From: Bugulina stolonifera
Lineage: Eukaryota > Bryozoa > Gymnolaemata > Cheilostomatida > Bugulidae
DNA length: 64,000 bases
Reading direction: 5' to 3'
Assembly (NCBI GenBank): GCA_935421135.1
Contig: OW285193.1
Location: 16,788,099 to 16,852,098 of the forward strand
Shown here: positions 6,001-38,305 of the stretch, one piece after another
How the letters are laid out: every line of letters begins with the position of its first letter
Numbering within the stretch: the first letter of the stretch is position 1
Program-made: the position numbers and the translations under genes
The notes under the pieces: generated by a model
The model's input: only the letters and a program-made list of their open reading frames with translations
Database searches by the model: none
Told to the model about the DNA's origin: nothing

Positions 6001-9000
6001 AAAGGCATTGTATCAAAACATTTAATTACACACAATCATGTATACACTGTACATACACTGTTATTAGCAAAACGATATTCAATTATACACTATTATTATA
6101 ATATTAGAAATTCATTTAATTAAATTTAAAAACTGACCTTTTGCCTCCGTTAGTTCCTGCTTCTATAATGTGCTGCAAGAGTTTGGAGAAAAACCTCCTC
6201 TACTGATATGAGTTAGCCCACTATTAGGATTCGGAGTATAACCTCCTTTATACTGTTACGTTACATGTAGTTTATAATTGTTACTGATAAATAGTGTTTG
6301 GAGTATAACCTCCTCTACTGGTTGTTAATGACTAACTGAACAGGTTGAACAGCAATTCCCTTCCTTTCAGGCCCACTAACAACAAAAATACCCACACCTG
6401 GCTAGAAGTCCGCAACACACAGTACACCCAGGCCACAATAGGAAGGCAACCCACCAGTCACCCTAGTGCCTCCAGATTTTGTAATAATATATGCAAGGGT
6501 GAGTCTGTGATGTCATGGTCAGTAAGTTCTAATCACATACCACAGAGGAAATATATTAACATGATATTTTCTTTACAGTGAGACTGGGAGTTATCCTCAC
6601 AATGCATCCTCATAAATGGACAGATAACTTGCAAAAACCACACAAAATATTTCTGGATGTGGAAGCATTGCTATCAATTAACTTTGTATGATGGACTTAT
6701 ATAATACATACCTGTACTCTCACAGTACTGGGGACTTATATAATACATACCTGTACTCTCACAGTACTGGGGACTTATATAATACATACCTGTACTCTCG
6801 CAGTACTGGGGACTTATATAATACATACCTGTACTCTCACAGTACTGGGGACTTATATAATACATACCTGTACTCTCGCAGTACTGGGGACTTATATAAT
6901 ACATACCTGTACTCTCGCAGTACTGGGGACTTATATAATACATACCTGTACTCTCGCAGTACTGGGGACTTATATAATACATACCTGTACTCTCGCAGTA
7001 CTGGGGACTTATATAATACATACCTGTACTCTCGCAGTACTGGGGACTTATATAATACATACCTGTACTCTCACAGTACTGGGGACTTATATAATACATA
7101 CTTGTACTCTCACAGTACTGGGGACTTATATAATACATACCTGTACTCTCACAGTACTGGGGACTTATATAATACATACCTGTACTCTCACAGTACTGGG
7201 GACTTATATAATACATACCTGTACTCTCACAGTACTGGGGATTTATATAATACATACCTGTACTCTCACAGTACTGGGGACTTATATAATACATACCTGT
7301 ACTCTCACAGTACTGGGGATTTATATAATACATACCTGTACTCTCACAGTACTGGGGACTTATATAATACATACCTGTACTCTCGCAGTACTGGGGACTT
7401 CAACATTATCTCACTCAGCCTTGCATTGACCTCTTCAATCTGATCTACAGCTCCTTCAAAGTCTCGCTGAGCGATGAGAACATCCAGGTCTTCGGGTACC
7501 TCCCTCAGACCCTCCATATCAACCAGCTCGTCATTGGCAGGGGTAGGGTCAGCTTCAAATGCTGTCAGAATGGAAATCATAGAATAATATATAAGATGGC
7601 AGCATCCAGCCAGTACATCCGCAAAACAGTTATGTAAGAGTTCACGTTCTATCCATCATATACATGTATATAGAGTTAGTAGACATACTTCGTGGCAAAA
7701 TAAATTGGCACAATAGACAGCACCTCTACCACTAACTAACAAACGAATGAACAGGTTCAGCTTACGGTTATAAGCTGAAGGTTCCTCCCCTTCAGGACTA
7801 GAGAGCTCCTTTCTCTCAGCTGCAGCCGCTGCCTCTCTTCTTGCCTTATCCTTGGCAGCTTTTTTCTTCTTCACTTCTTCCAGATATTCTAGCCACTGTC
7901 TCTATTGGACGGGTGTATAGATTGAATAATACATGTGCTTATATCACATACTGTAGGTCATGGGTATGTCTCATTTAAGAGCTAAGGCTATATTTCGTTG
8001 TTAGCTAGTATTAATGAATATAAATGTTGATTAACCACATTTTGATTTAATAAAATAAACTTCACAAATTTTAATTACAAATAACAGTTTTTGCTACATT
8101 AATAATTCTATACATCTCCTGCACGATACTCATGTATGTCAGTCTAATAGCAGGTTTTACACTTACCTTAGCCTTAGGATTCTCAGCTTGATACATTCTA
8201 GTATCGGGGAACATAAGTACTTTGAAGGCGTTCTTGACAGGGCCAGCATCTCTTACATTGACCACAGCTAGACTGTCCAGCTCGTACAGAGCCTGGAACT
8301 TGTACTTGACAGGAGCTCTCCTACTACAAAACACATCAGGTACTTGACAGGTGCTCTCCTACTACATAACACATCCATTACAGTAACTAAATCTTGTCAT
8401 GAGAAGCAGCTTTTCTTTTCACCGTGACTGCTGCTTATTTGGAGACGCTAAGAGGGAGGTAACTCCATGCAGCATGGAGAGGACATATCAATTAATCTCA
8501 CTAGTTTCTATATTAACTAAGATTATACAGTTACTGTCCCATAGGCTATAATCACAATCTGGGATTCCAAATTAAATAACCATCGTCACTAATACAGTAC
8601 GGATTCTGAATATGTCAGCTGTCTAAAAACTGACAAAGTATAGAGAAATACCAATTCACAAAGTGCTTTCAATATTTACTTGCTGTCGGTAATAATCAAT
8701 AAATTTCCCAATATAAAATAGTCAATACTAGTCAATACTAGTCAATTTTCATCTACATACTTGTTGAGGTTTGACTGCCAAGACGCTAACATCAGGCTGT
8801 CATTAAGTAGGAACATGTGACATTTTTGTAGCTGAGCAAACGACTCCGGCTCAATCTCCACCACGTCTCCGTCATGTACAAGATGTCTGCCAGAGACTTC
8901 CATCACGTGCTACAAAACAATAACAGAGTACGTAAACATATAGTCGTGCATATCCATCTCAGTATTCAAATAAAATAAAAAGTGCGGAGAGAGATGCAAG

Positions 9001-17378: not shown

Positions 17379-20300
17379 CTAGCATTCGTTCATTTCCCCT
17401 TTATTTATTGAAGAGTTGTGATAACCATGGACTGCTTCCTCTAAAGCTGCTTGCTTCTGTTTCCGTCTTTGTAACCGCCTCTCTTTGATTTTTCTACAGT
17501 GTCCTATCGTGCTCATAATTATACACTCAAGGAATTCAAATGCTGTCAATACTGAACATCCGATAAATAGTCCAAGATGTCCGCCGATGCTTCCTGTAAA
17601 ACCATGTCATTGATTACCTTCATTACCTTCATTATTTGTTACAAGAACAGAGTTTCTGGAATTACCATGCTAAATTGTAAGAACTTGTAGAATATTCTAG
17701 AAAAACTGTTTGCCAGACTTGCTATACATACACATATGCCTGAGTGGTACTTGAACATGGCTGATGAGGTCACTTCTGGTTTACAAGTGTTCCAAATATG
17801 TAATATGTTTTTTATTAGTAATTTGATACACACTTCTCAGAAACCCTGAAGTCAATGCTCGCTTTGAGCTTTCAACAGCAAAATATGAATATGTTTATAT
17901 GGGTTAAGAGTTTAATAGTAAATACATGTAGTAATACAATACAAGATGTATTTATGTGACACTAATTCTCCTTAAATAAATTTCTACAAGAGTCCTGCCT
18001 GTCATCATCAGGGGAAAACAAATTTTATGTGATTGCCGACAATTCTGTTTTTATGGACACAAAGTTAGAATAGTCAGCATTTACACAACGCTGCATAAAG
18101 GAAAAAAGTGTACATTGCAGTAATTATTGGTAGGAATAGAACTAAAATTAACATTACAGTAAAAGTAAAACTATAGAAGCACTGTACATCAAACATACCA
18201 TACCATAAATGCACCTGTTTAGTACCACAGTTGAAACTAGTCCTTTGATCTACCTTTTAATGTTAGCGTACTTTTTTTTCAATTTATTTTAATGTACATG
18301 TGAATACACTTTAGCTTTATTTTATTGCCTTTCTCCGGGCCTTTAGTCTTTCTATGGATGCACTAGTAAACCCTTTCATATCTAGCTTTACAACATGCTT
18401 ACTTTCTTTCATCTAGTACACATATGCATATGTGAAATATAAGAGTAGTCCTAAAATATTTTATATCATTACCTTTCCGCTGATGATAACAATGGGACTG
18501 GACCCGGTGTCGAAATAGTAGAGAATTGAATAGCATCTCAAAAAGACGCATTTTAAAAATTTCATTTATCAATAAAAACATGATTAAGAAAATAAAAGTT
18601 CTTACCTAACAAGGCTGTGCTGTCCATTGCCTTATTTTGAATAGTTTCCATTTCTGACATGGATTCGAAATACAAATCCAGGCTCACCACATTCCCTCTG
18701 AAACATTTTAATGATGCATTATTACCTCTTTATAATCTTTCTCAGCCAGATGCTAAATGGCAACCCGTACATGAAAAAGTAGCAATTTTAGAGAAGAAAA
18801 ATTCAGAACTTTTACTCGAATTATAAACAGAATTAAAATAATATATAGAAGCCTACCAGTTGATGAAGGCCAAGCCTACACGTATATATTCTATCAAGTT
18901 GATTCATCTCTACATTATGCATGGTATTGATATGTTTATCTACTTACAACTGAAAATTCCACACCATAGAATTCTATTATTTTAGTTTGATAAGAAGTAT
19001 GAAACTATGGTAGTATTTTACATATGGAGAAAAACTTATATATATTTACAGGTATTTGGATTTTTCAATTTGACATGTTTGACTAGGTTACGAAAAGTTA
19101 CTTTTCTAGCGTTTTTTGTTTTTTTATTTTTCCATTTTACTTCATACTGTACATGTATCCAAAACCAAATAGCAAGCATATGCAATCAACAAACTCTCGT
19201 TTGCAATGAAAAGACACTGCTCATCTAAACAGCTATATATATGCAACAGGGTAAACCCTATCATAATATATTATATTGGTAAGTTTCTCTGTCAGTTGAG
19301 TGCCATGTCATTGCCACTAGTTATTTACGGCTTTCCATTTCCAAAAATAAGGTGCATTTGTACAGTATAACAATCTAGTGAAGAATGAGCAGTCGTCTAA
19401 TAAACATAACAAGACACTTTTGCTCCAGGGTATAATTTGCATACCCTGGCAGGTCTACGTGGTATATACTTTTCAGGAACGTTGAGTGTAACAGATTATC
19501 ACATATATGAAGCACTCACTTGATATACTGAACTTGTGTCCCGTACTCTGGGCCTCCCGGCACTGCCTCTGGAAGTTTTATTTTTAATTTCTTACCCAGG
19601 TCGGTTCCAAAAGGTATGTTAGGGAACCCTGAGTATGATAACTTGACATCAAACTCCTCGTCGTTGCAGGCTATGGGACAGTCGCATGATTCGCCAAAGT
19701 TGGCATTTATCTTAGCTAAAAATAAAACCATGTTACAAGCTAATGTGCAAATTCTACAAAATGGAGGTTATAAATAAGAGCGTGTTGCTAACTAGCCTCT
19801 GTTCCACAGAAAACAACAGATATACCCCCTGACTCAGGGCTGTAACAACCAGGGGGGCAAGGTGGGCCTTTGACACCCCAGAAATCTGTCCAAAAACACA
19901 TATTTGTTGGTGTCAAATTTCAAAATGAAACTTTGAGTACATTGATCACATATTTAGGGCCAGTATTGTTGTCTGAAAGACAGTGTAAGTGGCCTGTGAT
20001 TCTGTATATCTACTTGAATTTGATAGGAGAATATTTTAAGCTACTTTTAGTATCAGTCTGGGCAGCCTGATACTCCGGCCTGGAATTTTTGCCCCCTCAG
20101 CCAAAAATAGTTGTTACAGCCCTGCCCTGACTAATCTTTTGGATTATGTAGTACCCATTCTTTGGTAAATCAGCTTAACAGAGCAAGTCATGTTTAGCAG
20201 AAATAGAACATGTAGAGTAGAAGTTATGTTTGCATACCTATTTCAATAAAGGCACAACTGCTAAGTACGTCAAAGCTGCAGGAATCGAAGTCACCAGGGA

Positions 20301-22992
20301 AGTAGTAAGGTTTGCATCCACACTCGGCTACAACTTTCTTCAGCTTGCACTCTATAGCACAGGCTTCTACTGTATAGTGATCTACGTAGGTTAGCTCCTT
20401 ATCGGGATCACATTTACCCCACGGTGGATACAAGTTTGTTACCTGGTAATTCAAATAGCAAAATCAGGAAACAAAATAGTTAGAATATTTGCAACCATTT
20501 GAAAATATTCTCAGGAAGTTTTAGATCTCAATATAGATAATGTTGTAATGGTCTGGACATTTGCCTATACGGCCTCAGCTCGCCTGATGGACCTTATAGC
20601 ACCTTAAGTGCCTAGTAGTTGCCACGGCTCTACTTATCTAGTTCTGACAACCTGCACTTAGTTACCTATTAACTCATGCCTACATAGTTATGCATGTTTT
20701 GACCATACATTTGTAATTACTTATCACTTATATACTTATAATGTGAATTACTGAGCAATTATGTCCTTTTTGTACCCATGTAAAGAAGCCCGATCTCTCA
20801 GAATTGCCTGATATTGATTTTGCATATGATCTAGATGGTTTAAAGCATCTTTTGTCAAACCCAACCTATTTTGGGTCGGCCATCAGGCTTCCGGCCGCCA
20901 TATTGTTGCGCAATTTCCGGACGACACTACGTCGGCCTTTTTACCGGAAATTCCTCCAGAAGTTCCTATACTACATTGTATATAAAGCACACTGTTTTTA
21001 TGTTTGTTGTCTCAGTTCATGCTTGGATCTCAATAAAGATACATCTATACTTATATACAGAGACTCACTTCGTAGATAGATCATTCCAGTTGTTAAGGTC
21101 CTCGACCTTGCAACCTGAACTGCCTACTAGGTCGGGTCACTCTCTTTCTCAGTATAGCAAACAAGCATTGACTCGGGACCATATGGGTCGTCTTGAGTAG
21201 TTATTTGACTGCTAGTACCTGTTGATCTTTCATGTAATGAGAAGGCCTAGCACCACTCATAGGTTCTTCATTTTGGACAAGGGGTCGTCTTAGGACGACA
21301 GCACAACCCCCCAAAAACCATTACAATATTATTGCATCAAAATCTTCGAGACACATCATGCTGCAATAGTATTAGACTATGTTCCAATTAGAGCAGAGTT
21401 TGAAACTGCCACTACATGCTAGCAGGAGGTGAGAGTGCATTCCGTCCACACATAAGACTTGGCACCTTTTTACCATGCTAAGTACTCATAGCCTGAGAAA
21501 TTATATTATCCCTCTTACAGTGACTTATTTGGGAGCTTACTCTATTTTTCTGAAATCCGACGAATGCTTTCTGTCCAGGTCCTGCTGAATAACCCATGGC
21601 ATTTATGATAGGTGTCTGGTAAGGCGTGTGCACGATAAACTTTAGCCCCAGTTCGCTGCTTCCATGGAGATCAATTGACTCTGCATACTCCCACTGCAGA
21701 GAGCAATAATTCACCTTATATACATGTACTTGTATAATCGAATATGCAAAATTAATGAGCTTGTCTTTTACAGTGGAATACCAGGGGAATACAAATGTAT
21801 GAATAGCTAACAATAACAATCATCTTTGTATACAATAAAGCCATCAGGCAATTATTCAGGACTGACATAGAGGCCAAAGATAGCGGAAGGACGGACACTC
21901 ACACTTAGGCCTAAAACTGCGACGCTGGTGTAACAGCTATCTAAAAACTCGACAGATGAATTTTATGGGGGTAAAGTAAATCGAGGAAAGACCTCTAAAC
22001 TTGGCATATTTTGTGGGACTGATCTTTCCTTCCACTATCTTTGTAGAGGCCATGCAGGTTACATGTACATATTGATTACTTGTATACAAACCGTTTGGAT
22101 ATCAAGCATTATCTTCAGACCTCCAATAGGGCCGGCATTATCTTGAAACAATGGAGTGTGGATGTTTTCCTCTTCAGCTAGGAATTCTGGTAACTTTTGG
22201 TTAAACGTATAACAGTTTCCGTAAGCTCCAAATTTGTGAGTGAACCACTGAAAATGACAAGAGATTAGTGTAATGGGTGCTACTTTGAGAGAAGCGTCCT
22301 GCAACTGAAAAAGTAAGCTATAACACCTTGCACAGCATACATGTTGCCATGTAAGAGTAAAATTGATACTTCTATGCAAATTATGGGCTATTTTACAGCA
22401 TCACTTTTGCAGAATTTCTTTCTCTTGGTAACCAACTTCCTAACTATAAAATTGACTTCTGCTGAATTACATAACAAAAGAAGCCTAGACCAATTCTGAT
22501 TTTAGAAGGGAAATTCATGTAAGCAAACAAATCCAAAGATTTCACAATCAATTACCTCCTGATGGAACTAAAGTGGACAAACATTGTCACTAATATTATA
22601 CGAAACTTGATTAATGTAATTTATTTAGTAAATGTGATACGATAATTAAATTCAGTAAATTTGACGTCAAAACTTGGGCCCACCAGATGTCCACAACAGT
22701 AATATCAGCTAATCAGTCTAAGTTACCCTTGAGTCACATGCTTTCCCTCTAAATGTGCAAGACAGCAGAGTATTGGGCTCATCGCTGCTGTGGTTAGAGT
22801 GCTCATCAACCATCTGCCAGCCCGCTACTCGAGTAAAAGCAGCAAAGTTGAACATATCTTTTTCCTCATTACTCGTAGAATCTGTTGAATTATTGGAAGA
22901 CGGTTCTGTAGTGCTACTACTACTAGCACTCGCAGTGGTGGATGAAGTGGCTTCCTGGTTGACTTGACGTTTGACTCTCACACTATCAGGGA
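17379..22992 (-). CDS. Exons encoding the channel's Cys-rich extracellular region, TM2 and C-tail
   Basis: Exons 22727-22992 to 17379-17593 carry the family core: KFGAYGNCYTFN, LGLKFIVHTPYQTP, NLYPPWGKCD, the YTVEACAIEC/CGCKPYYFPGDF cysteine pattern, CDCPIACND, LDLYFESMSEMETIQNKA before TM2, and the pore-lining IGGHLGLFIGCSVLTAFEFLE. These are the palm, thumb and pore of a trimeric DEG/ENaC channel. The short cytoplasmic end is strongly basic (KERRLQRRKQKQ) and has no PPxY endocytosis motif. Confidence 0.93.
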
Positions 22993-25900
22993 CTACAATC
23001 ACATCAATTCTACATACAATAGTTTCCCTGTAGCAAGTGTCCAAGTGAGAGTAGATCAAGGCTTTTACCATGAGTTACATGATAAAAATGGGCAACGTGA
23101 ATAGCATTACAATCATGTATAATTTATGTACATGCACAATTGGTCTTAGTCTATGATTGTGTTACAGTGTACATGTGCATGTATGTGTAGGTGTACATAT
23201 ACACTTATATGTACATGTATATACTATAATTTTACATAGTAACACAACGTAGAGAGAGGTTGATGAGCATGTCAGAGCAAAAAATATGGTTCAATAATGT
23301 GAACACTAGACATTGGAACATGTTATAACTGTATACACACATGTAACCGTGTAATCGATTTTTCATAAGTAACCGGTTCCTCATACGTGACCGGTTCCTC
23401 ATACGTGACCGGTTCCTCATAAGTAACCGGTTTTTCATGAAGGCAAAACCTCACAGTTCATAACTGCCTTACTATACTGATGCACAATAAGCAGTGAACT
23501 GAGATACGCAACAAATATGGCTTCCATACCATTTGAAGTGTAAGGGATCATTTGATCACTGATGGAGCCAGCCACAATGCGAGTGTTATGTTTACCCATA
23601 CTGTAAACATTTCCACTCCACAGCATCTTATTCATGACGTCTACGGACAGAACTCTATCCCAAATATTTACATTTGCGATCTCCGCCCCGCTTGAATCGA
23701 AAGTAGGCCTGGCACCATCTGTCAAATTAAAACAGTGCTGTTAATTGACATTCATGCACACATGTATGTACAGTATATGTTGAGATATATAAAGACCAGT
23801 TAATAGGATCTATGACCAAACAGTAAATGAGATCTAGACTTCATCCTTTGTTCAAATTAAAACAGGGGATTTCGCCTTTTTCGTTTCTCTTTGGGTAACC
23901 ACCCCCCCCCCCCAACCTAATTACCCCAACTACAAACATTGACCTCAGCTTATCCAAACAGTTTACAGTGCACTGTAACCATAGGGTAGTTGGAGCTTAG
24001 TCTACATGTATATTATATACACTTTAATATATACATGTATACAAGTATATATGACTGTAAAAGCAATGGGGTTGTCCTTGCTGTCTTATATCTACAGAAG
24101 TGCTAGAATAAGGAAAACTAGGTAATTATTCAGTCTGGTATTATTTCTACAGTTGATGAGTCTGATACGTACTTTAATGGTTCCCGGACTTAACCATCTG
24201 GAATTTGGCAATAGCTCCAGATATGACAAATATATGACAGATTTTTATTAATGTGCTGTGATTAATTATAAAGGTTGCCTTCAGACTGACATCCACAAAC
24301 ATATGAGTTGAGTTGACATGTTTCAGGTACTTCTATTTTACCACTTAGCTAACGGTACAAGGCATTCTCTTTCTCTTTATCTTTCCTAGTCAACTACAAA
24401 CTCTGTTTGTAGTAACTTATTAGCACCCAAATATTCTTGTCTTTGATGTACAGCATAAGTTGTGACTCTTTATGGATGTCATTTAATCAGCACCAATATA
24501 ATATATTGAGTTATTATCCTCCAACTAAATAGAATTGTGGACTATGCAGTGCTCAAAGTGTATGGCAGTTCTTACAGGCTCTGAGATGGGGTGGGAGGTG
24601 GGTGTGGTGAGTTGGGGTGTGGGCATGATGATTTCTTACAGGCTCGCCGAGCTTGGGCGAGCCTGTACACTTTGAGCACTGCGCCTATGGTAGGAATAGC
24701 ACTGTGTGCATACATGTATAGTCTGCATGTAGATACAATATTCTGCTACCATAGTCTGATTGCATCAATTACTGTACGTACCTTGAAAATTCAGGTAGCT
24801 GGCATATTCGTTAAAGTACACGACTTGCCCGTTAAAGGAAAAGTCCCTGATGTTAGAGATGTCATCGTCTCCATACACTTGCAGCCCCTCCTCATCACCG
24901 AGGAGTTGTTTGTATAGCTGAAAGAATTACAGATGAGGGTAACATGGGAGTACATCTGCTAAACAATAGCGGAGTGAGAGCAGGAAAGGAAAGTTCCATC
25001 ACACTTGGAAAGGTACATGTATATTAAGGTCATGCAATGGTCCAGCTCAGCCCAATGTTACTCTAAAGATATGGAGATCAGGGAGTGCACACTGGGAAGG
25101 GTTTGCAAAGAAGTTTAAAGGCAAGTGCAAGGTTTGTTGGAAGGAAATCAAATCATACAATAGAACAGGAGCGAAGGAAAAGGTTCAATATCAAATATTC
25201 ATAGGTTATATCAAATAATATAGAAATAATTTCAATGCAAACCAAATTGCCAATTGTGTGTTTTATTATACACTGACATCTATAACTGCATTGAGTTGAG
25301 ATATCGTACCAATAGGACTCATGCCAAAATTAAAACTTTATAGAGATGTTGTATAAGAAAAGAAGTCTATGTAATGTATTATAGAAATTGTTATTTAGAA
25401 CAGCCTCTACATCCCAGCACTGCGCTACACATAGACTTACCTTTAATTGGTTTAACTACAATAAAGAAATACTATAGTAAAACTGTTCTACTAAATTCCA
25501 GAACTACTACTAGTACATGTACATCTCAGGTTGATCAACTACTTGATTAAGATAACACTGGTAGCAGTTGTACATTTCTTAAACAATTTTAATTCTCTCC
25601 TAATTGGCTAATTGAGTTATTAGGTCATGATATGTAAGTCTTATATAATAATTATATGACCACAACCTCTCCCCATAACTTTTATATAACATGAACCTCT
25701 ACTAAGCTTCCTTTAATCACTCCACTTGTTTATAGGCTATATCCACCAACAGAATATTGTGTTAATTAAGAAACGTTTGTATAAAATCATGTCTCTAGAG
25801 TGCAACTAGAAATAGCTTGCCTGCGACAGTGCATATAATTATATACTGCATGGTAAATAGTAACAAATTAGACCTGAACTTGCTTGGCTTCTTTAAATTA

Positions 25901-28900
25901 AAATCTCTGTATAATCTATTCATATTTGCAGAGCTAAGCTGATGTTATCTTTATTTATTGGCTTATGATTATGATCTCTACACTAAGGTACATGTAAATA
26001 TTTGCAGAGAAGAATTAGCTGTAGACATGGATCTAAGGCTACTAGATCATTTTGTTGTAGTTGTCCACCCATGTATATAATAATTGTAGCCCATACTTGA
26101 TGTTATACATGCTAATGTACTGACACAACCACACAACCACATCTATAAGCAGCTCCAGTATTTTCAAGGACAGATCTGGTAAAAACTGATTTGAACAAAC
26201 CTGGATCAAGCTTGCTGAAAGCTCCACACCAGAGAGGAGTTTAGTAATTTATCCCATGACCTGCCACTGTCACTCAACATACACATATCTTACGTGTACA
26301 TGTACATACATGTACATGTACATACACATATCGTACGTGTACATGTACATACACATAGCATACATGTACATGCCAGTACATGTACATACACATATCGTAC
26401 ATGTACATGCATACAAATAACATGTACTTACTGTTTACCACCATATAACACACTCTCCACACACATTCGTGCATGTACTTACCTTTAAAGAGTGTAGCTG
26501 CAAAGAAAATACAAATACAAGTAAGATGTGTAGTATGCTTCAGGTGTTACGCATACGCAGAGTATGATAGTAGCAGTGTAATTGTATTTCATGTACACAT
26601 GTATAATAGAGTTAGTCTACAGTACATTGCTCACAAACACACACCACATCATAACCTAGACTTTTTATTTTTAGGAAGCAACAGGACTAAAGATCTTAAC
26701 AGTGCAATTATTACTAATAAATTGAAAGAACTGAACGAGTCAAGATGTTTTGAAACACTTAAGATCATGAGAACTAAGTTTTAGTCGTTCAATAATAAGA
26801 TACACTGTAGAAATCTGACTAGCAAGGCTACTGAGTATGTCAGACTAGTAATAACATAATACTGTAAAAGTTAGACCGTCAGACTGATAAACTAAGGTTT
26901 AAATAGTGGAAGAAAGATACCTGTGAATGCGCCCCTGAAGTTGAGTACTGCAGACACATGGGGTACCATCTATTGAACCTAAGCAGGGCCATGGTACCTC
27001 CTTCAGAGCCAAATATGGTGTACTTGATGCCGTAGATGAAGTCGGAGTTTGTCTGTTCAATCTGCTGTACTGATAGAATTGTCTCTTCTGAAAGAAAAAA
27101 GATTCTTTAAAAATGATTTTTAAAAGGTTAATACAAATAAAATAGGCTTAGAATCATAATTAACAAAATGGCACATTTACATGATGTAGAAGTTATCCTC
27201 TCACAACTAATTTTGCCTCGCATAGCCCTAGTCCTAGTCCAATATGGGTGACCACTGCAAGAACGAAACAGAAATTTCCCTTGACCCAGAATAATCAATC
27301 CAATGTAATATATTCTTCTAGTATTTATATATTTATGCATTCCACATATTTAGTGACCACGGAATTAATTTCTGATTAATCAACTATTTCTATATTCTAT
27401 GTAGTAAGTCACACCTGTGCAAGGTCCAGTACCTGCTCTCAATGTGCAGAGTACAGTTATACATGTACATGCATTCTCAGGTATTACCCATGTGCATGTG
27501 TGATGCAAGACTAAAATTCTATTAAATCGGTTAGCTGTTTTAGCAAAGTTTGTAGGCATATTACCTATTACATCATTGCCTTCCTTTGCAAAGTTTCGAA
27601 CGCGTTACTATACATATATCACACACACACATATTGTAGCACAATGTTTGAAATTGTTAGCTACAATTTAAATACAAGACAACCCCATATTATAAAGAAC
27701 TAATGATGTACAGCTATCAACAACCACATCTATGTTTTCATTTTAAAATAGCTAATTCCAAAGTAACTCTAAATTACCAAAAAGCTGTTAATGCATCTTA
27801 CTGTTTTCTCAAGTCTTGAAGGAATCTTTTCTTAGGTATACATCTTTTACCGAGGCTAATACGTGAAGAGTTAACCTAACAGATGTACTACATATGTGGG
27901 GTCTTACTAGGGTTAAATTTCGCTGTGACAAAAAATTCCTTCCAAAGAAAACATAATTTATTAGCTACCACAACACAGGTGTCATAAGCATGCAGATGGG
28001 TGAATAGTATTAAAGTGATTTACTTATAACTGTTCACCTGTCCAGAACTCATATCACCTGGCAGCACTAACAAATTGTTGAGCTAAAGTTGCTTCTGGCA
28101 TTGAATATCTGAGCCACTTTTTACCAGTAAAAATAAATCAAATGCACAATTTATTACATAAATTAGCACGTGACAATGTAACACGTAAGTGGTATATCTT
28201 CTATCACTGACCAGGTATATAATCTACCAAGTAGGTTGGCCTGAGAATGCTCAGGTACCTGAGTGAAGTAGGGTACTACTCCACTGTGTCATGTTCATGA
28301 ACATAGAAGGTCATAGTCTGAGATACCGGTATGCCCAAGTGAGTTAACTGCTAAGTGCTGTTGAATATTGGAAAATAAAGAAGGCTCTCCATAAGTTTAG
28401 AACCCAGGCTAATAATTTATTATTCTATAACCTGGTAAAGTAAAATGTGGTATAACAACATAAGCAAATCTAAAAATTGCTTAATTTGCTAGCACCTCTG
28501 CTGTGATTGAATCTACTTGAGTTGGTTGATAACGACACTCATTATCTACTTGGATGAATCTACCAAACTTCTTCTAAAAATAGCTTTATATACTATAAAC
28601 TGGGTTCTTAGTCTAAATACTGTGACAATAAAGCCACCTTTTGAAGAGAGCTACACTTTGCTAGACTGAGCTCAAATTCTGTCATGTGAACTGAGTTCCC
28701 AACAGAATCAGCTTGATCTGCATGCCTTACATGTATTAAAATCATTTTTATAAGTCTAAAATTATAGCACCCAAACTAATAATTAGGTTTTGGTACCAAT
28801 AGGCCTACTTTAGAACTACACTTGATGTTTTTTGTTGCAAGGAAAAGAAAAAATACATGTGAAAAGAATGGTCAAACTTCACAACTATGTTTGTGTTAAC

Positions 28901-31900
28901 TTGCAGACAGAGTTCAAAACTGTAGAAAACGTCTCGGTGACATTAGGCGTATTCCGGGATATTGCACGTGCAAGCTTTATAAATAACAATCTGCAGCAAT
29001 AACAATTTATCTTATTCAATAATATAATGCTAGCTATGTCTGTGCCTGGTAATAATATTTATTGTTAACAAGGGGAGTCCCCCTTAGATCAAGCATTATT
29101 CACGCCTGAACACATAAGCTGGGGGATATTAAAAGCGGTGTTATATGAACCAGTACAGTTTCCGAAGACGCCTATTACCTCCCATGTTCATTATGGTGAC
29201 CAGTAGCTCCTATTTCTCAGTGAGAAGAGTGAACCTTATGTACCCGGTTTGTAGAGTCATGCTTGACACTAACTCAAAGTGTTCAAATACTGTGTTAATT
29301 TGTTATGAAGGCGGATGTTAGCTTACCTCCTTGGCCATAGGACAGAACTGTCCCCAATTTGTGTTTCTTCATAGTCTTGATCCACAAGCACAAAGTCAAA
29401 CCGTCACTCTCCAGGGAAGAATTAGCATAATTAATGATGTCTGACACTGCCATTGCTGTCGAAGAAGAGTCATTGTTTGCCACTGCATAAACATCCCCAC
29501 TCTGTGCATCTAGAAATACAGATAGCATTGAGACTGTATCATCTTTCTAAATACATGAGATATCAAATGAGAGCTAGTACATGAAGTTCAAAGCTTGAAC
29601 TTGAACTTCTTAAAATTCAGAAGCTCAAAATTCAAATGCAAGTCTGTTCAAAACCTGACCTTTGATTCAGTGTAACCAATTATTCACCAAAAGACAGTAA
29701 ATTATATTACAATCATAGGCATCTTGCTATCTTCTATATTGCATGATTTTTAGATCCTGGTGTTGGCTGGCAGAAGTTAATTTATGGTAAGATCCAAGTA
29801 TGCCAGAATTACAAGTTTATACTTGCGTTTAAAACACAATTACCCACAATTAATTATATTTAATCGCAGATTAGAATCAACTATATGATTTACTGCATCA
29901 GTGATAGCAGTATAAACTATTTTAGCAGTATGATAATATCATTTAGCTTTTGCGGTTATTTTCTTAGATTATTATTTATGGTAATCATCCTTGCCATTTG
30001 CCCACCACTAATCTTAAGGAATTGGTTAGATGGGCTACATTTATCTGCATCTTAAATATCACTTAATGTTAATCCAGTACCTTTGAAGATGGTCAGTCAC
30101 AAGGTGAAACCAAAGCAGAAGCAGTAGGATTAGACTAAGACACTTTGATTAGTCTAGAAAAGTTTCAAGAATCAAGCTGTGGTAGAAATATACAGCTGAC
30201 AATTTAACGTTGTATTTAGGCCTATTTATAATAATATGTAAGCAGCCAAATCATTGGGGATATGGCTTATTGGGCGGGTAACTCCCTAGTTCATTACCTT
30301 GTTTTATGGTTGGAATGACATAATAACATGGTAATAGCATCTGTCTAGAAATAAGGGTTTTAATCAAATACATAAATATAAATGTGTATAAATGTCAGTA
30401 TTATATACTTTTAAAACTATATTTGTAAACACTTCTAATGCCCTCTTTTACATTGTTTAGTACTCTCCACTACATGTACATACTGCATTGAGTGGACTAT
30501 ATTTAAATATGGTTTTATTCGACCACTCATATACATTGTATATGAATGAGACCGGGATAATAAGGCTTTATGCCATTTACATTTTGTATAAGACGCACAT
30601 AATATTTATGGAAATGCAGCTGTATAAATACATGCGTTGCTAAGCTACCATCTTATGTGTCCTGCTAAAACAGGATTTCTTTCCTGGGAATACTAATAAC
30701 AACATTTTATCAAAGTTTCTTCTCGTTAATTTCGACAAAATTTAGCTATTGGTCAACCTACATGTACATTTGTATCATTAAAGGTAGCTATTTTTGTAAC
30801 ACTTTCATAAAAAGTTTCTCATAGTAACAGTTGACTGTAACATGTATACTTCATTCATTACATGCTTTCTTTTACTGCATATTTAAACTTCACGCCAACG
30901 ATAACAAATTGCCGCACAATACTGTGGGCACAATGTACCAGAGCTATAATTGTGGAGGCGAATAATGGTTTTCTGGAATTCACAGTAGTGACATCATACA
31001 GACTAAATTTATCAACATCAGATAATATTCAGACTAATTCCGATTAAATACGACTTGTCGGATATATTGGTTAATTTGAGGTCAATTGAGAATCTCTGAT
31101 ACTTGGTCACTTGTAAAGTCTACCAGGTAGATGCAAATTTAGTTTACATGTATATCCGCTTTCGGTATACACATGCGTACCGCATTAATGTCCAGCAGTA
31201 TACAACTCTATTTCACCCATAAGTTTTAGGATCTACATTCTACTGCTAGGCAGGAGAATTGGGTTATGATGATGACACATCATTTTTTCACTTCAAAGGT
31301 TATAAAATAGTGCATACATCATGCATTCTAGGATAGGAGCCACCAGGATTCTAACAACTCTGTCAAAAGTCTACATAATCTACACTCTACTGCAGTCTTG
31401 TGACTACTACATGTACATGTAGTCAACTAGGTAAGGTATTAGTAAACATGAAATACTTACTGTTTACACAGAGAGGGATTCTTCCACTGAATGTTCCGTT
31501 TTCTGTACAAGTCTGTTCAAGTTCACCATCCATCGCTTTCACGTCTGCTCCATCACAGTAGAAATTTATTATAGATCCTTCCACACACGATGTACGTTCT
31601 GCATTATGGTAGTCACCCCGGAGCTCATAGCTCAACCCATTATTTGTCTCTGGCAAGACACAGAAAGCCAGAGGCCGTGCCGTAGTGGTGGTGGTTTTAG
31701 GTTTTTCAGTTGTCGTAGGAGGATCTAAAAAGAGTGTACTAAATTAATCCATTACTAATTAAATTAATTACTAATAACTATAAAGTACAAACATTTTTAT
31801 ATTCAAATTTGGAAATGCATGTAGCAGTAACATTTACACTCCCAAAATAAGCTGTGATACTGTTCAATACAAATTTGTACAATAGCTTTTAGACCTGAGA

Positions 31901-34900
31901 AGCAATTGTATAGTTATGACCAACTAAAGTAAAATTCATTTCTGCACTAATTATCATGCTAGACCTATAACAATGCTCTTCCTTTGTTGTGGTCCCAATA
32001 GCTACCAAGAAGTAAAAAGCAACATTAAGCAAATTAAAATAAGATTGGGGAACCGGCTAACAATGTCCACAGAAGTTTGTAAATTTCACTCAACTGTTGA
32101 AGATAATTATAATATTGAAAGCTATTTGAGAAAGAATGTGCAAGCTTATGGTACATCTGGTAGTCTTAAAATTGTTAATGTTGCTCTTAAACCTGTAATT
32201 TCTGTACATGCATAATGCATTAGATACAGTCTCAAGCCCAAGACAGGTTAGCAAGGATGATATACTGCACAATATTTATGAATCTCCACTAAGAAGTGGG
32301 ATGCACAAATAATCACAATTTTTATGGATTCTTTGATTTATTTATGCTTATAATGAGCTTTGTAAAAGATGATGAAATAGATTAACCCAATTATGTACAA
32401 ACTGAGGGATAGGTATGAGATTTATGGACTATAGTCCATAAATCTCATAGCAGACAGCTCTAGTCACAGTGAATCAGTGTGATTCAAAGTGGCTATGTTG
32501 TCACAGAGCTAAACTTCCCCCATACCGGATACATGGTGTACATGTGGGAAGCCAAGCATGTTGACTCCAGCCTCATGATTTCTGTACTGTAATACCTGCT
32601 ACCAGTAGCTATGAATTACACATTTCTCCGATAATAATAATACATCCAGAGCTCTGTTGGGGTTTTCTGCTTTGGGTCTAGCAGTAAAATATTCCCTTAT
32701 TTTGTATCTGCATCTGGACCTTTTATAAGAACTTTGCTAATCTGCAGATTGTGACGTGAAAAGTTCATCAAGAAAGTTAATACTTTAATCTAGCAGTGAA
32801 ATGTAAGTGCAGTAACCAGACCTTGACTCGGTGAGGAGAGAGAAGGGGCTCTGGTAGTGTATAAACACACTCTACAATGATTATACAAGCGTGAAATATG
32901 CATAGTGGGTTATGCTAATATCTTCCTGTACAGGAAGCTAAGAACTGCTGTGCTGGTCTACCTACTAGATGAATTCATAACCTAAAATTACCTATCAGAG
33001 CCGCCAGGTCAGCCACCTGAACTTGTCCACGGTCAGAGTCACTGAGTTCAGGTATTACATAATCATAGCTATACACCGAGAGAACTTTCTTCAGATTTGC
33101 CAACGCCTCGTCTGTTAATTTCGACTTTCTCCATCTATAAAAAGAATAAAAGTTGACATTTGATATAGAACATTTCTGCAAAGCCTCGTTCCACTTACAT
33201 TGTCTATATTTATGTGCGTCCCTCACACCAAATCTTAACATGAAACTCAAAAGAATATAAATTATTTAGACTGTCTGTCTGCTTAGAGGACAGATACCAA
33301 TGTTAAAAGTACTGAGTTCTCAATAAGGCAGGGCAGAAGGTGAACCTGAAGGTCATTAGTAGCCCTTAGAAAAGCATCCAACTAGACACCCATGACATTA
33401 TTTTATCATAATTATCAATACCATTTAGGGTGCTTTTGCTGCCTCCAAAAACAAAGAAACGCACTCTTGTCTGAAACTAATTATAGGAAATAGAGTTGGT
33501 GAGTTGTATCCAATCCCTGTGACATCGTTAGCGTGTATCTTAAAACAAGTGATTGGACTGGCTAGGGCTGTTCAGTAAATTTCCGCAAGGCTTAAGCCCG
33601 GAGGTTAAGATTTGGAACTACTGTAGTTGTATAGAATTCATGACTGAACAGTAACGGAGCATGAAGCTGACAGTTGTGTCAGATGTGCATGCACCGTATA
33701 GACAAGACCCAAACGTGGAATGTAGTGCTACATGACTGCCTCAATGATTATTAATACAGCTTCATCTATAATGTAACAAATAAGTTAATTGTATAATTTT
33801 ATATCCTGGTGAACTAGATGGTACTGCCAACCTTTATTGGAAGGTTGCAAAATGATTTGACCTGGATATTTTTGGTTCAATAGGTGTGCAAGTCATATTT
33901 GGTAAATACTAAAATAATACCTGCAAAGCTATGTATATCATGCAAATAGTGCGTAAATAGTAATAGTATCCTACTACCTGTGCAAATTAATTTACATGTA
34001 TATGAAAGCATGATATGCTGAAATGATGATAAGGTGGTTGAAACAAAAGTCATCACTAGAATATTTAAAACCAGCGAGTTGGTCCCCCAATCTCAACTCA
34101 GTCTCGTAGATTACCATACTTCACGCTGGTGTAGCTAATCATCCTATTAACCTGGATTATTAGGGCAGGGCAGGTGTTGAAAATGGAGACAGGTTTCTAC
34201 AACACTCTCATGGGAATATAAATAAAGTTAACTAACATGTGGCAAATATAGAATCGTTGTCTGGCTGAATTTTTAAGAAAGTTATTTTAGTAGGAGATTA
34301 CCTAAGCCGTGTCTGGAGTTTAGTGGCACACTAATCTAGTGAAGGTGTATCATAACTGTATGTCCTAATATCATGCTTAGTGTCTTCGCGACCTTTTGGG
34401 CCGCCTGGATCGCAAATAAAAATCCCAAGATGGCCATCCGGCCTACGGCCAAAAGGCTATTGACCTGGAATTTGGCTTGGTCAGAGAAAACCATCTCTAG
34501 TTCATCATTTAGTTCTATAATGATTATGCATGTTCATATATGTATGTACATATGCATGGCCACATCCTGCAGAAGTTCACTCTAAGCAGTCATGTTGTGT
34601 TTAACCAGCCAAATATTTCTTTTTTAATGAGATGCACAGAAACTAAATTTAGGTTGTAAAACAAAAACCACTGAGTGTCAGCTGCCAACAGCATGTCTGA
34701 GTACTGCTCTATACTCTGTAGTCTTCATGCTGCAGTGACAGTGGTTTTAACGTTGGGTTTATTCTTTTGGTAACAGACACAGGTTAAGATTTTAGGTTTA
34801 TGGTAACTTTATTCTTGTTTATCCATTATTTAGAGTAGCCAAGTTACATATAACCAGTCTACATATAACTAGTCTACATATAGCTAGTCTACATATAGCT

Positions 34901-37900
34901 AGTCTACATATAACGAGTCTACATATAACTAGTCTACACATAACTAGTCTACATATAACTAGTCTACATATAGCTAGTCTACATATAACTAGTATACATA
35001 TAACTAGTCTACACATAACTAGTCTACATATAACTAGTCTACATATAGCTAGTCTACATATAACTAGTATACATATAACTTTTTGCTGGTTTTTGAGACA
35101 CCAATTTCAATATGTGTATAAAGTGTGTTTAATCTCTGTTTAGTTTTTGTAAGGCAGGTAGTTTCCAATATATTATGAGATTACTGGATTAGTGCCAACA
35201 GTTACTGAGAAAACCCAGAATATCAACACAGCATTCCTCTATCCTGGTTGCTATTAACAAGAGTTTTAGATGAAAGTGTTGATTGTTTTTTAGAACTAAT
35301 GATTTAAAAGGGCAAATATCTCGGAAATTCTCTTCTTTTATTATTGTTTTAAAAGAATAAAATCACACACATACAAGTGAATACACCTTTATCACGTGTT
35401 GTCTGTCTAGAATCTCAATTCTATGAAGAGGTAATCACTATTATTCGTTGTTGTATTCAAATTTTATACTATTTTCATAAAAAAAAACAAAGCTAGTCTG
35501 TCGCATGAAGATTTGATGTGTTCTGGTTGTAGATGATACGTTAGGTAATGGTGGACAGCTCAGTCTTCTTCTACCTCTTTACTGGTAGAAATCAGGAGAG
35601 GAACAAAGTCTAGCTACATGTAGCCATGACGAGCAAAAACTAAATCTAACAAGGGGAAACACAATTTCTCTCTTCTCAAAACTAAAATATCGGAGTCGCA
35701 CCGGTTGTTGTTGTACAGTACTCTAAATTAATGAAATATTATGTAGCTCTAAAGAATTTCTTGGTGGGTACAGCGTAATACATCAAGACCTGGACTGCCG
35801 CTACTAAATGTATTTGAGGCATAAGCTCAAAGACCTACATAATCGTACATGTAAATGCAGCTCTGCATGTGCTATCGATAGTTATAGGGAGACAGCTGGC
35901 AACCTCACCAGGTGTAAATCTAGAGAGCACAAAACTCCAACTCTCAACTGCTCTTATGGTCATCCACTAGAGTAAATAAAGGGTGAGGACACTTGAAACA
36001 CTTAAGACAGGTGTCACTGCCCTGTCACAGATCTGTGGCAAGTTTGAAAGTGCCAATAGTATTTTAACAGGTTTATTCTACAATTTCATGACATGATAGT
36101 TTATCAGAATACATGTTAAATTAAATTGAATTTTATTGTTTGGTTGTATGTTTTTTATTGATGGATTAAAATTTAGCGAATGCAGAAAAGTACGTAATTC
36201 TTCAGCTGTGTTATACCGTAATTCTTCAGCAGTGTTATACTGTAACTCTTCAGCAGTGTTATACCGTAATTCTTCACCAGTGTTATACCGTAATTCTTCA
36301 GCAGTGTTATACTGTGTTATACAGCGTTATACCGTATTATACAGTGTTACACTTGTCATGATATACCACCTCGGCACATGAAGTAGTAGTAGATGAATGG
36401 AACATTCTGATACTGTGGTAGATTTAGTGTCAGCGTTTCAGTTTAAATTAAAGTTAAGAAGAATTGGCCAATAAGAGTTGACCAAGACTTTATAGAGAAA
36501 TACAATGTTGGGCTCACCTAATTTTACCAATCTTCGGCCATCTCAGACCGTAACATATTAGCTGCTTAAAACCTCAACATAATATCACAGCTTTTTTGGG
36601 GTACACAGTCTATATGTCTGTGCTAAGGTACCACTGCATTCAGACACAGACTTGTGAATGGCAACTTAGGAACTGGCACATTGTGTATGGCTAGGAAATG
36701 AAAGCAGATACTGAAGACTTCTTTGCAAAGGGAAAGCATTACAGGCATCTACATGTACGTGCAGGTCTGCATAGTACAAGTACAGTATTAGTTAGCCCAT
36801 GTTCTATTACACATGTACATGTATATTATTGTATGATCAACAGCAAGCTGCTTACCTGTTGAAGTTACAGAAAGTAACCGATGGGAAATCAATCTTCTCC
36901 TTGTTATATTTACTGATCTCTGTAGTGGTAAGGTATTGCTGGTAGGTGTGAACACTCTGGTAGATCTCATATGTCACATATACGAAACAAGCTACAAGTA
37001 AAGTAACATTACGTATCATTTATAAGAAACTGTTAAAATTGTTACAACAATAGCTTGGGTAGCTACCGATAAATGCTGATGATAGCCATACCCGATGCTA
37101 AATAAAACTCTCTCTCCGCATAATTTTAGTAAAAGTGCAAAATAAGTATTTTTTATGTGTGAAGTGCAACTTCTTTCAAATTGAAAACTTCTTAGAAGAA
37201 AAACTGTTGTTTAGTTGCTATAAATAAATTTTCAAGAATAGCACCTTATAGAATTAGTATATGTTTGTATACCATGGTAATATGAATGTTCAAGTATAGA
37301 GTACACGTATATACAATATGTACATGTATATGGAGTAGGCCACCGGTTCTAGATACAATTGTAGTTGATCCAGTTAATGATTTTATGCCAACTAGATAGT
37401 ATCTTGAAATTTTTTGCTTAACATGGTTTTCTCATTGTGCTGTAGGGTAGACAGGCTCTTGCTATATTTTATAATCGGTTTACAGTTCACTAACTGACTT
37501 CAAGGGATCTTCCTCCACATGCTATATACTAAATAGTTCATGTAATTGTAGATCAAAGGGTTTTTAAGTGTAATTGCTCCGTGTAGGCCCCCATATTCCA
37601 AATAATCACCCAGTCTCACTTTAAAGTGTCTAATACCTTACATATAGATTCGCTGAATTTTTCGGCCTTTAGCAGCATAATATTATCTATGAAGAATAAT
37701 CAAATTCATACCAACGACGGCCCATTAAAAGTATTATTATGCTTTTACAAGTTGGAATTACGTTCTACATTTGCAAAGAGTCACTAACTTATCAATCTTT
37801 TCGTTAAACCTACGCTGCTGCTGTTGTGGGAAATGTTCTACTTTTTATTACAGTTTTACAGTACGTCACAAAAACTCTAGTTGTATATCAGAATTGGGAG

Positions 37901-38305
37901 AAATCATCGAGAGACAGCCAATTTAAGCTTTGGCGACTACCTATCAATTGGAACAGCTATAACCTAAATGCAATTTACTCTACTTGATTATATTTTTCTG
38001 CAAGTAAACTGGAAAGCAGCATTGTGGAAGTTAATGTGTCAGTAGAACTTACCCAGAAGTGCTATAATCCATACGGCTCTCTGTGCCCTGGTCGTAGCTA
38101 TAACTCTAGAGATGCCATGTGCAGACGTATTCTGTGCCCAGTACAGTTCGTACAATTCTTCCTCCTCTTCCTGAGTTTTTCTCTCTGCTTCTTCTGAGGT
38201 CATTCTCCTTGTTGTCCTTGCCGTGACTCCCAACGATATGAATGATTATGATGCTTGTGCTGGATGTTATAATTCCAGAGTAACCTTTGGTTCTAGACCA
38301 ACAAT
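17379..38305 (-). CDS. DEG/ENaC (ASIC-type) channel with inserted sushi and pentraxin/LamG domains
   Basis: Amiloride-sensitive-type sodium channel subunit. Coding exons: 38053-38203 (ATG at 38203-38201; the exon itself starts at 38305), 36856-36991, 32992-33134, 31461-31724, 29327-29509, 26921-27087, 26483-26497, 24782-24917, 23530-23718, 22727-22992, 22092-22247, 21541-21693, 20238-20442, 19520-19715, 18606-18697, 17379-17593. Phases agree at all 15 introns, giving 888 residues plus TAG. Order: acidic N-tail; conserved His-Gly gating pair H29-G30; TM1 about 43-66; FPSVTFCNFNR near 86-96; sushi domain 144-231; pentraxin/LamG-like domain 232-461; RVKR at 467-470; Ser/Thr/Asn linker; LLSCTFRGKAC near 540; Cys-rich palm/thumb 551-787; TM2 with GCS filter (IGGHLGLFIGCS, about 819-830); basic tail ending NEC. 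A plain channel would be about 570 residues; the module adds 318. An in-frame TAA precedes the chosen ATG. Confidence 0.93.
19835..20124. mobile_element. hAT-type MITE, 290 bp
   Basis: Terminal inverted repeats CAGGGCTGTAACAACC and GTTGTTACAGCCCTG with an 8-bp target duplication CCCTGACT (19827-19834 and 20125-20132), the hAT hallmark. No transposase. It lies in the channel-gene intron between exons 20238-20442 and 19520-19715. Confidence 0.88.
20544..21325 (+). mobile_element. Solo-LTR-like element (plus orientation)
   Basis: Begins TGTAATGGT and ends ACCATTACA, with near-matching 4-bp flanks ATGT/ATAT. A TATA box (GTATATAAAGC near 20980) precedes AATAAAG (near 21033). Inverted relative of 14420-15081. 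It is inserted antisense in the intron between channel exons 21541-21693 and 20238-20442. No internal retroelement genes are present. Confidence 0.58.
23345..23440. repeat. 18-bp tandem repeat, about 5 copies
   Basis: Units of ACCGGTTCCTCATACGTG with small changes, in a channel-gene intron. Each contains the palindrome ACCGGT. Confidence 0.85.
23530..29509 (-). CDS. Five exons encoding the pentraxin/LamG-like domain of the channel
   Basis: Exons 29327-29509, 26921-27087, 26483-26497, 24782-24917 and 23530-23718 encode residues 232-461. Recognisable are the pentraxin-type strands LTLCLWIKT with GTVLSYGQ, the paired-cysteine strand WYPMCLQYST, FSFNGQVVYFN, and the closing motif AEIANVNIWDRVLS. 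The fold is a concanavalin-like jelly roll that binds sugars, proteins or phospholipids in other proteins; the ligand here is unknown. Incoming and outgoing introns of the whole block are phase 1. The classical pentraxin HxCxS/TWxS signature is degenerate. Confidence 0.82.
24547..24681. mobile_element. Very short hAT-like MITE, 135 bp
   Basis: Near-perfect inverted ends CAGTGCTCAAAGTGTA and TACACTTTGAGCACTG, flanked by imperfect 8-bp repeats GGACTATG and CGCCTATG. The interior is G-rich. It lies just downstream of channel exon 24782-24917, in the intron. Confidence 0.65.
26270..26420. repeat. Local array rich in ACATGTACAT and CACATATCGTACG
   Basis: Irregular repeats of the palindromes ACATGT, GTAC and ACGTGT spaced about 40 bp, beside the 15-nt microexon. 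Open frames on both strands here reflect the repeat only. Confidence 0.7.
26483..26497 (-). CDS. 15-nt microexon in the LamG-like domain
   Basis: CTACACTCTTTAAAG (Leu-His-Ser-Leu-Lys), bounded by a good acceptor (TTTTCTTTGCAG) and donor (GTAAGTACA). It is phase 0-0, so skipping it would keep the frame and remove five residues. Confidence 0.75.
31461..31724 (-). CDS. Exon encoding the sushi (CCP) domain of the channel
   Basis: One symmetrical phase 1-1 exon of 264 nt, typical of shuffled extracellular modules. It opens with a Thr/Pro-rich stretch (PPTTTEKPKTTTTTARP) likely to be O-glycosylated. The CCP fold signature follows: C165, NNGLSYELRG, FYC (C200), C216, then C229 after GRIPL. Sushi domains normally have four cysteines; an extra one (C190) is present and may pair outside the domain. 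It encodes residues 144-231. Confidence 0.9.
34381..34505. mobile_element. Fragment of the TGTCTTCGCGACC MITE family
   Basis: Starts with the terminal repeat TGTCTTCGCGACC and continues with the body in reverse orientation relative to 43611-43875 (AAGATGGCCATCCGGCC, AGGCTATTGACCTGG). It is truncated after about 125 bp. Confidence 0.7.
34850..35080. repeat. 15-bp tandem repeat, about 15 copies
   Basis: Unit AGTCTACATATAACT, alternating with AGTCTACATATAGCT, in the second intron of the channel gene. The unit is a multiple of three, so the minus-strand open frame over it is an artefact. Confidence 0.93.
36193..36340. repeat. 24-bp tandem repeat, about 5 copies
   Basis: Units of the form GTAATTCTTCAGCAGTGTTA plus TACC, degrading to GTTATAC repeats at the right end. 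In the second intron of the channel gene. Confidence 0.85.

Follow-up and report, generated by a model that had tools for sequence, protein, structure and literature searches.

DEG/ENaC channels respond to protons, peptides and proteases as well as to force. How mechanosensitive members of this family are tethered to the matrix has long been debated with reference to separate proteins. To our knowledge, the physiology of bryozoan channels has been little studied. Here, we describe a channel gene on chromosome 7 of the bryozoan Bugulina stolonifera, located in a window of 64,000 nucleotides (assembly GCA_935421135.1, contig OW285193.1, positions 16,788,099 to 16,852,098 of the forward strand). 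Its predicted product is a true DEG/ENaC subunit with a built-in module of a sushi (CCP) and a pentraxin-like domain, a pair of the kind usually found on secreted immune or synapse-organising proteins. The described systems that come closest are the following (here and below, the papers are cited from excerpts of their texts). The ectodomain of bilaterian ASICs comprises about 300 residues (PMC9949801). ENaC subunits contain GRIP, a set of beta strands between the finger helices alpha1 and alpha2 that is unique to ENaC and absent from ASIC (PMC6197857). Proteolysis at GRIP by furin and prostasin activates ENaC (PMC6197857, PMC7413742), and paired cuts release a peptide (PMC7413742). Lastly, LEV-9, a CCP protein that must be cleaved, gathers acetylcholine receptors into clusters, and a title in the reference list of the same paper names PTX3 as inducing AMPA-receptor clustering (PMC9083331).

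The channel gene was rebuilt exon by exon from the genomic sequence. It lies on the minus strand, as do all of its features given below, and its coding sequence extends from 38203 to 17379. With one microexon, the model comprises 16 exons and 2667 nt and encodes 888 aa in one open frame with consistent phases, and all 15 introns have GT donors and AG acceptors. A 17-exon form with both of two candidate microexons encodes 893 residues; its frame is likewise open, and its introns have AG acceptors and GT donors. Residue numbers refer to the 893-residue form, and beyond residue 353 five must be subtracted to obtain those of the 888-residue form. The encoded protein consists of, in this order, an ASIC-type N-terminus, the first transmembrane helix (TM1), a sushi domain, a pentraxin-like domain, a furin-type site, a cysteine-rich region, the second transmembrane helix (TM2) and the filter. 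Judged from this predicted protein, an ASIC-type DEG/ENaC subunit with a sushi and pentraxin-like module in its finger domain is nearly certain.

The same layout was found in other bryozoan genes. When the whole model served as query, three matches were obtained among 5660 candidate proteins. One of them, Watersipora subatra P0001 ("uncharacterized protein, isoform X2"), has the same layout from end to end, with 46% identity at 98% query coverage; the other two were partial matches to nematode channels (26% over 34% and 31% over 12%). P0001 is an NCBI and UniRef entry; the Ensembl annotation of this species was made primarily from transcript alignments (PMC12902671). The module as query matched one of 5182 candidates, Bugula neritina P0004, which is named ASIC5. 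This model of 297 residues runs from the N-terminus through TM1 and the sushi domain into the first stretch of the pentraxin part, and it stops at about the end of the equivalent of exon 5. The 888-residue protein was also searched against the genome of B. stolonifera (234,951,659 bases, 27 contigs), and 52 exon-level matches were obtained at E <= 1. Outside the window, these comprised an entire paralogue (C5:1343396-1363854, minus strand, in frame, 948 residues) and weaker matches to the ASC part only. Nine of the 15 exons compared between the C5 paralogue and the window gene are identical in length, and the other six differ by multiples of three. Because related genes share the layout, chance matches for the module can be excluded. 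The pairwise identities are 50.5% for window/C5, 47.3% for window/W. subatra, 53.0% for C5/W. subatra, 65.3% for window/B. neritina and 45.8% for C5/B. neritina. Thus, the B. neritina protein is closer to the window gene and that of W. subatra to the C5 paralogue, which suggests, from identities and not from a tree, that the duplication predates the split of these species.

These gene copies also bear on the reading that two adjoining genes, or two parts of a faulty assembly, were wrongly joined. The long introns, and the tandem repeats between exons 2 and 3, would be in line with such a mis-join. However, the same joint is present in three further gene copies, namely in W. subatra, in B. neritina and in the C5 paralogue, the last of them on another chromosome, and exon 10 encodes the end of the insert and channel sequence together. 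The mis-join was rejected, as it is already contradicted by these copies and is extremely improbable. The initial annotation of the window, made from its letters alone, had proposed that sixteen exons with consistent phases join channel, CCP and pentraxin/LamG parts, with the latter two in the extracellular loop, and that the module exons belong to the channel. The open minus-strand frame of 888 aa bore out the exon series, and the layout proved to be conserved in the bryozoan copies found. The predicted joining of the exons was supported end to end by W. subatra, across the junction 32992/31724 by B. neritina, and across both this junction and 23530/22992 by the C5 paralogue.

The channel core was readily recognised. 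The Pfam ASC family matched with 292.1 bits (cut-off 23.6; E 1.2e-86), in two stretches, and the best PDB matches were ASIC1 structures (E 2.2e-57), followed by ASIC2 (6e-52), ASIC5 (1.5e-48), ENaC beta (8.2e-27) and FMRFamide-gated channels (2.9e-24), which is a ranking by similarity and not a tree. Hydrophobic peaks at residues 43-61 and 831-849 correspond to TM1 and TM2 and flank one large ectodomain. Exon 1 (38053..38203; donor GTAAGT) carries the start codon, the cytosolic N-terminus, the HG gating motif (SAHGISR, with SAHG at residues 27-30) and the start of TM1, and its start region matches the B. neritina and W. subatra proteins. The remainder of TM1, the first palm strand and the post-TM1 motif FPSVTFCN are encoded by exon 2 (36856..36991; 136 nt, equal in length in the C5 paralogue). 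On the far side of the insert, the ASC extracellular domain continues with exons 11 (22092..22247) and 12 (21541..21693), followed by the cysteine-rich thumb region in exon 13 (20238..20442), the thumb and palm in exon 14 (19520..19715) and the lower palm in exon 15 (18606..18697), where the acidic residues E803 and E809 are kept. Exon 16 (17379..17593) encodes TM2, the filter, the cytosolic tail and the stop codon. The selectivity filter GCS (17553..17561, as counted from the exon sequence; residues 834-836) corresponds to GAS in chicken ASIC1 (cASIC1). Exon 13 is duplicated in the C5 paralogue, which contains two intact thumb-domain exons of the same phase and of 205 nt each (C5:1346796-1347000 and 1345964-1346168). 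If they are mutually exclusive, as is possible, the channel would come in two versions that differ in the thumb.

The protein thus shares with ASIC1, ASIC2 and ASIC5 (compared with cASIC1, 6AVE) the two TM helices, the HG motif, FPxVTxCN, the GxS filter and 14 extracellular cysteines that are aligned with cysteine, while C276 is aligned with F. The conserved extracellular cysteines of DEG/ENaC channels form seven disulphides (PMC6197857). Unlike cASIC1, the window protein has a finger insert of about 370 residues, and H74, D79 and K212 (chicken numbering) are replaced by T, S and N. These are three of five proton-sensing residues at the palm/wrist and palm-thumb sites (H73, D78, K211, E411 and E416 in rat numbering) that are named as fairly conserved in ASICs (PMC9949801); H73 is changed to T, D78 to S and K211 to N, and two of the five, E411 and E416, are kept. 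Since three of the five key residues are changed, canonical proton sensing of the window channel is probably reduced. In addition, the positions D238/E239/D346/D350, which we take to form the acidic pocket of ASIC, are occupied by L/H/F/A. However, such a pocket is described as obvious in Group A ASICs of chordates alone (PMC9949801), and therefore its loss by itself says little.

The alignment to ASIC1 is broken only once: residues 22-137 correspond to chicken ASIC1 22-139, and residues 514-868 to 143-478. Consequently, 376 residues (138-513) replace three of ASIC1 in the finger domain, between cASIC1 139 and 143. Exon 3 (32992..33134) begins the finger domain and is aligned to cASIC1 through residue 139; we take it to represent the helix alpha1 region, and the presumed helix borders of ASIC would place the insert after alpha1. 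The insert consists of a Thr/Pro stalk (144-163), the sushi domain (164-231), the pentraxin-like domain (232-466), the RVKR site (472-475) and a Ser/Thr-rich linker to about residue 512. The stalk and the sushi domain are encoded by exon 4 (31461..31724; symmetric 1-1). The pentraxin-like domain begins with exon 5 (29327..29509; LTLCLWIKT...GTVLSYG; symmetric 1-1; 183 nt, equal in length in the C5 paralogue), continues with exon 6 (26921..27087; 167 nt, also equal in length), which carries the second cysteine of the pentraxin pair (WYPMC), and with exon 8 (24782..24917), and ends with exon 9 (23530..23718; IANVNIWDRVLS; symmetric 1-1; 189 nt, again equal in length in the paralogue). Exon 10 (22727..22992) contains the furin-type site, the Ser/Thr-rich linker and the re-entry into the ASC finger domain (FNFAAFTRVAGWQ...). 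The site RVKR (22967..22978) is the sole R-X-[KR]-R in the window protein.

Domain assignment of the insert required sensitive methods. In the whole window protein, Pfam yielded Sushi with E 0.058, below the cut-off, and the cut-out module matched Laminin_G_3 (E 0.0031), Sushi (0.015) and Pentaxin (0.089), all below their cut-offs. When two cut-out modules were scanned, Pentaxin (PF00354) matched only one of them, and so did Laminin_G_3. Because ASC alone passes its cut-off in the three full-length proteins, a search by Pfam domain architecture alone would probably miss this layout. As the whole-protein Pfam scan was too weak for the module, alignment-based PDB searches and profile-profile comparison were used, with a module profile of four bryozoan sequences, one of them partial. 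At E <= 10, this profile matched 35 PDB sequences, of which 32 were CCP proteins and two neuronal pentraxins (34 in all), and one was a plant transcription factor; with a profile of two sequences, 15 of 17 belonged to the first two groups. The hhalign comparison with NPTX1, NPTX2, a SAP-like pentraxin and PTX3 gave a probability of 94.5, an E of 8e-8 and a score of 53.05 over 139 collinear columns. None of 200 column shuffles reached this score (maximum 20.88), and the sushi part scored 9.55. The pentraxin assignment of the insert, as judged from these profiles, is firm, and the CCP and pentraxin-like folds are well supported.

Details of the two domains are consistent with these folds, with several deviations. 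The sushi cysteines C165, C200, C216 and C229 have CCP spacing and are kept in all four sequences, and the window protein has one additional cysteine, C190. A tryptophan ahead of the fourth cysteine is a usual feature of CCP domains; F is found at its place in all four sequences. The two pentraxin cysteines are kept wherever the sequences cover them, and the N-[IL]-W strand is kept in both paralogues and in W. subatra. The pentraxin signature is HxCx[ST]Wx[ST]; it is not kept, and WYPMCLQYST is found at the aligned place. The motif QEQD, by which pentraxins bind calcium, is likewise missing, with FNEYASYLN at its aligned place, which makes classical calcium-dependent pentraxin binding unlikely. 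In summary, the domain resembles NPTX1/2, PTX3 and SAP-like pentraxins in the collinear profile, the cysteine pair and the NIWDR strand, but differs from them by its location in a channel and by the missing QEQD motif.

Not one but two candidate microexons of 15 nt were found in the pentraxin part, inside the intron 26920..24918. Both have AG/GTAAGT flanks. The first was counted as exon 7 (26483..26497; LHSLK), and the second (25441..25455; LNQLK) is an alternative or additional microexon that is in frame if included. Of 2000 introns simulated with the dinucleotide composition of this one, 55 contained a single such candidate and none a pair, with a criterion for the pair that was fixed only after the pair had been noticed. 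A chance origin of the pair is unlikely. Since the W. subatra protein contains a single segment of this kind (HSVLK), an mRNA with 16 exons and one microexon is likelier, and 17 exons are possible. Therefore, the initial count of sixteen exons stands as the likelier one, refined by a second microexon candidate in this 2-kb intron.

The end of exon 3 and the start of exon 10 are both in phase 1, and therefore skipping of the whole cassette would keep the frame. This raises the question whether the module exons are a usually skipped cassette, such that the main product would be an ordinary ASIC and the module form a minor isoform. The phases at both borders would fit, and the designation of the W. 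subatra entry as isoform X2 suggests that isoforms exist. However, the deposited models of W. subatra and B. neritina both hold the module sequence, and the module is conserved, so that we regard a usually skipped cassette as quite improbable.

The same borders may reveal how the module was acquired. Phase-1 borders and symmetric exons are a classical mark of exon shuffling, and the sushi exon and two of the pentraxin exons are symmetric 1-1. An ASIC-type gene would have acquired the module through exon shuffling, by insertion into one of its phase-1 introns, and this event would have preceded the split of the paralogues. No donor could be named. With region 142-475 of W. subatra P0001 as query, only this protein itself was matched (1 among 8000 candidates scored), and the module search mentioned above, made with a two-sequence profile, matched B. 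neritina alone (1 among 5182). These protein searches need shared 5-residue words, and for this reason distant relatives were possibly missed and the module may exist in other phyla. In the same genome, 16 matches to the C5 module were found at E <= 10, nine in the two channel genes and seven of the sushi part elsewhere, the latter at E >= 0.1. Pentraxin and sushi matches are present elsewhere in the genome (for sushi, among the best 150 of 676 candidates), and the module profile was applied to 12 loci. Six weak matches (E 0.049-0.3) were obtained, four of the pentraxin part (L027, L028, L030 and L031) and two of the sushi part (L024 and L025). There was no match of this profile in the loci L032-L035 beside the window.

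The last group includes two pentraxin loci (L032 and L034) at C7:16755436-16755588 and 16770514-16770657, which score below the cut-off, share one strand and lie 33 and 17 kb away from the left edge of the window. On C1, two loci about 35 kb apart (32167385-32183649 and 32202565-32218829) yielded sushi and pentraxin matches with an identical series of scores. Judged by these scores, the pair looks like a duplicated gene of the SVEP1 type or like an assembly duplicate. The first of the two resembles the channel module in that the same two domain types occur in one neighbourhood. It differs in having many sushi exons and no ASC among the matches listed there.

The explanation that we favour, with a probability of roughly 60%, is that of an exon-shuffled recognition module in the finger that is coupled to gating and perhaps processed by furin in some members. 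The module would be a recognition domain in cis, located atop the trimer. It would bind a partner, either protein or glycan, on a surface or in the matrix; the ligands that classical pentraxins bind with calcium are improbable candidates. Binding would position the channel, and the finger would relay the bound state, or tension, to the gate. A furin-class protease would in addition cut behind the module in the window gene and in W. subatra; the module would then be attached by its stalk only, and the finger would be freed, much like the proteolytic relief of ENaC at GRIP, at a similar place. To regard the subunit as receptor and channel in one is a reasonable proposal. A functional analogy is offered by CCP proteins such as LEV-9, which serve ion channels by clustering ionotropic receptors extracellularly; LEV-9 does so once cleaved (PMC9083331). 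They are, however, separate secreted proteins on acetylcholine receptors, whereas the bryozoan CCP domain is part of the channel subunit. We rate a role of the module in positioning or gating the channel as about as likely as not, and furin priming as somewhat less likely than not.

Several observations weigh against this explanation. R-X-[KR]-R was sought in the insert of the C5 paralogue and not found, and thus furin priming cannot be general. The window protein has only one R-X-[KR]-R, and paired sites flanking an inhibitory tract, as in GRIP, were not found in it. The domain matches of single sequences were sub-threshold (Sushi 14.2-17.4 bits versus 20.7, Pentaxin 12.9 and 16.0 versus 25, and Laminin_G_3 18.1 versus 27.6), and the whole C5 protein yielded ASC alone in Pfam, even at E <= 10. 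The individual PDB matches of the four-sequence profile were weak, the best with E 0.0017, and many were to the same proteins; for this reason, the pattern of the matches is what counts. The exon borders of the C5 paralogue were hand-picked with the window gene as a guide, and one of its donors (GTCAGT) is weak. A microexon with a GT[AG]AG donor was sought in this paralogue and none was found, the sole match being the end of exon 6. Finally, among the three full-length proteins the pentraxin part is 37-43% identical, compared to 63-71% for the ASC part.

The module therefore changes faster than the channel core, as would be expected of a domain that binds a ligand, but equally of a looser spacer. 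In the latter case, the module would be a passive, glycosylated part of the ectodomain that serves folding, trafficking or protection, with neither a ligand nor a role in gating. The Thr/Pro and Ser/Thr-rich flanks, the N-glycosylation sequons and the missing calcium motif are compatible with a spacer. A mere spacer, however, need not have retained a two-domain fold, whereas the six structural cysteines and the N-[IL]-W strand are kept in both paralogues and in W. subatra, and the exon plan is kept in both paralogues. We thus consider a passive spacer somewhat unlikely, and prefer a recognition module.

The furin-type site allows for yet another reading, namely that of a chiefly protease-gated channel. 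The insert would be a lineage-specific counterpart of GRIP that keeps the channel shut until RVKR is cut, and ligand recognition would be secondary. The window gene has RVKRQ in common with W. subatra, where RSKR forms a second site, and the place in the finger domain is similar to that of GRIP, as judged by comparing the break at cASIC1 139/143 with the published description of GRIP. With GRIP of ENaC alpha and gamma, the insert shares its character as an extra domain in the finger after alpha1 and the furin-type site. In contrast to GRIP, it is a sushi and pentraxin-like pair with one site, and this site is missing in the paralogue. With the siteless C5 insert and the single site of the window gene against it, a chiefly protease-gated channel is unlikely.

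No ENaC or ASIC with a pentraxin or sushi domain was found described in the open-access literature searched (titles and abstract openings, with subscription journals and preprints outside the scope), in agreement with the initial annotation, which knew of no described member with such a layout. The excerpts of a survey of 700 DEG/ENaC sequences, including the ASIC of the bryozoan Membranipora, do not mention such a module (PMC9949801). Judged by this search, the built-in sushi-pentraxin module of this DEG/ENaC subunit appears to be new. If the favoured explanation is true, a recognition module is covalently present in the gating finger, and the question of tethering becomes testable within one protein. 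It would also imply that a receptor channel can arise in a single step through exon shuffling, and would offer a possible molecular handle on sensing in bryozoans. More tentatively, and in this extended form rather improbably, one exon-shuffling event may have produced a bryozoan invention, a single-subunit receptor channel that senses, in place of protons, a ligand on a surface or in the matrix (of self, of a symbiont or of an adjacent zooid). Some members would be primed by proteases, and duplication would have led to a two-gene family with tunable parts, the twin microexons and, in the paralogue, the twin thumb exon.

The DEG/ENaC family is large in B. stolonifera, with at least 88 exon-level ASC matches (among the best 93 of 215 candidates), many of them on C10, C5 and C1. 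The control ASC search also matched one prokaryote, Thermotoga maritima. Downstream of the channel gene, open frames at 7344-12637 (minus strand) matched VPS51_Exo84_N (30.3 bits, above the cut-off of 24.2) and Exo84_C (27.6 bits, below the cut-off of 32), and probably represent the exocyst gene EXOC8/Exo84. Tandem arrays are present at 2107-4692 (35-nt unit, 74 copies) and 6693-7400 (39-nt unit, 18 copies), and an array of 15-nt units is present at 34845-35080, inside intron 2 of the channel gene. An open frame at 52049-52549 (minus strand) contains a long His/Gly/Pro repeat (AHHGP), and its match to Extensin_1 (20.4 bits, cut-off 105) is probably due to composition. A single open frame of 310 residues at 44555-45487 (plus strand), without a Pfam match at E 0.01, resembles by eye an NHL-repeat propeller.

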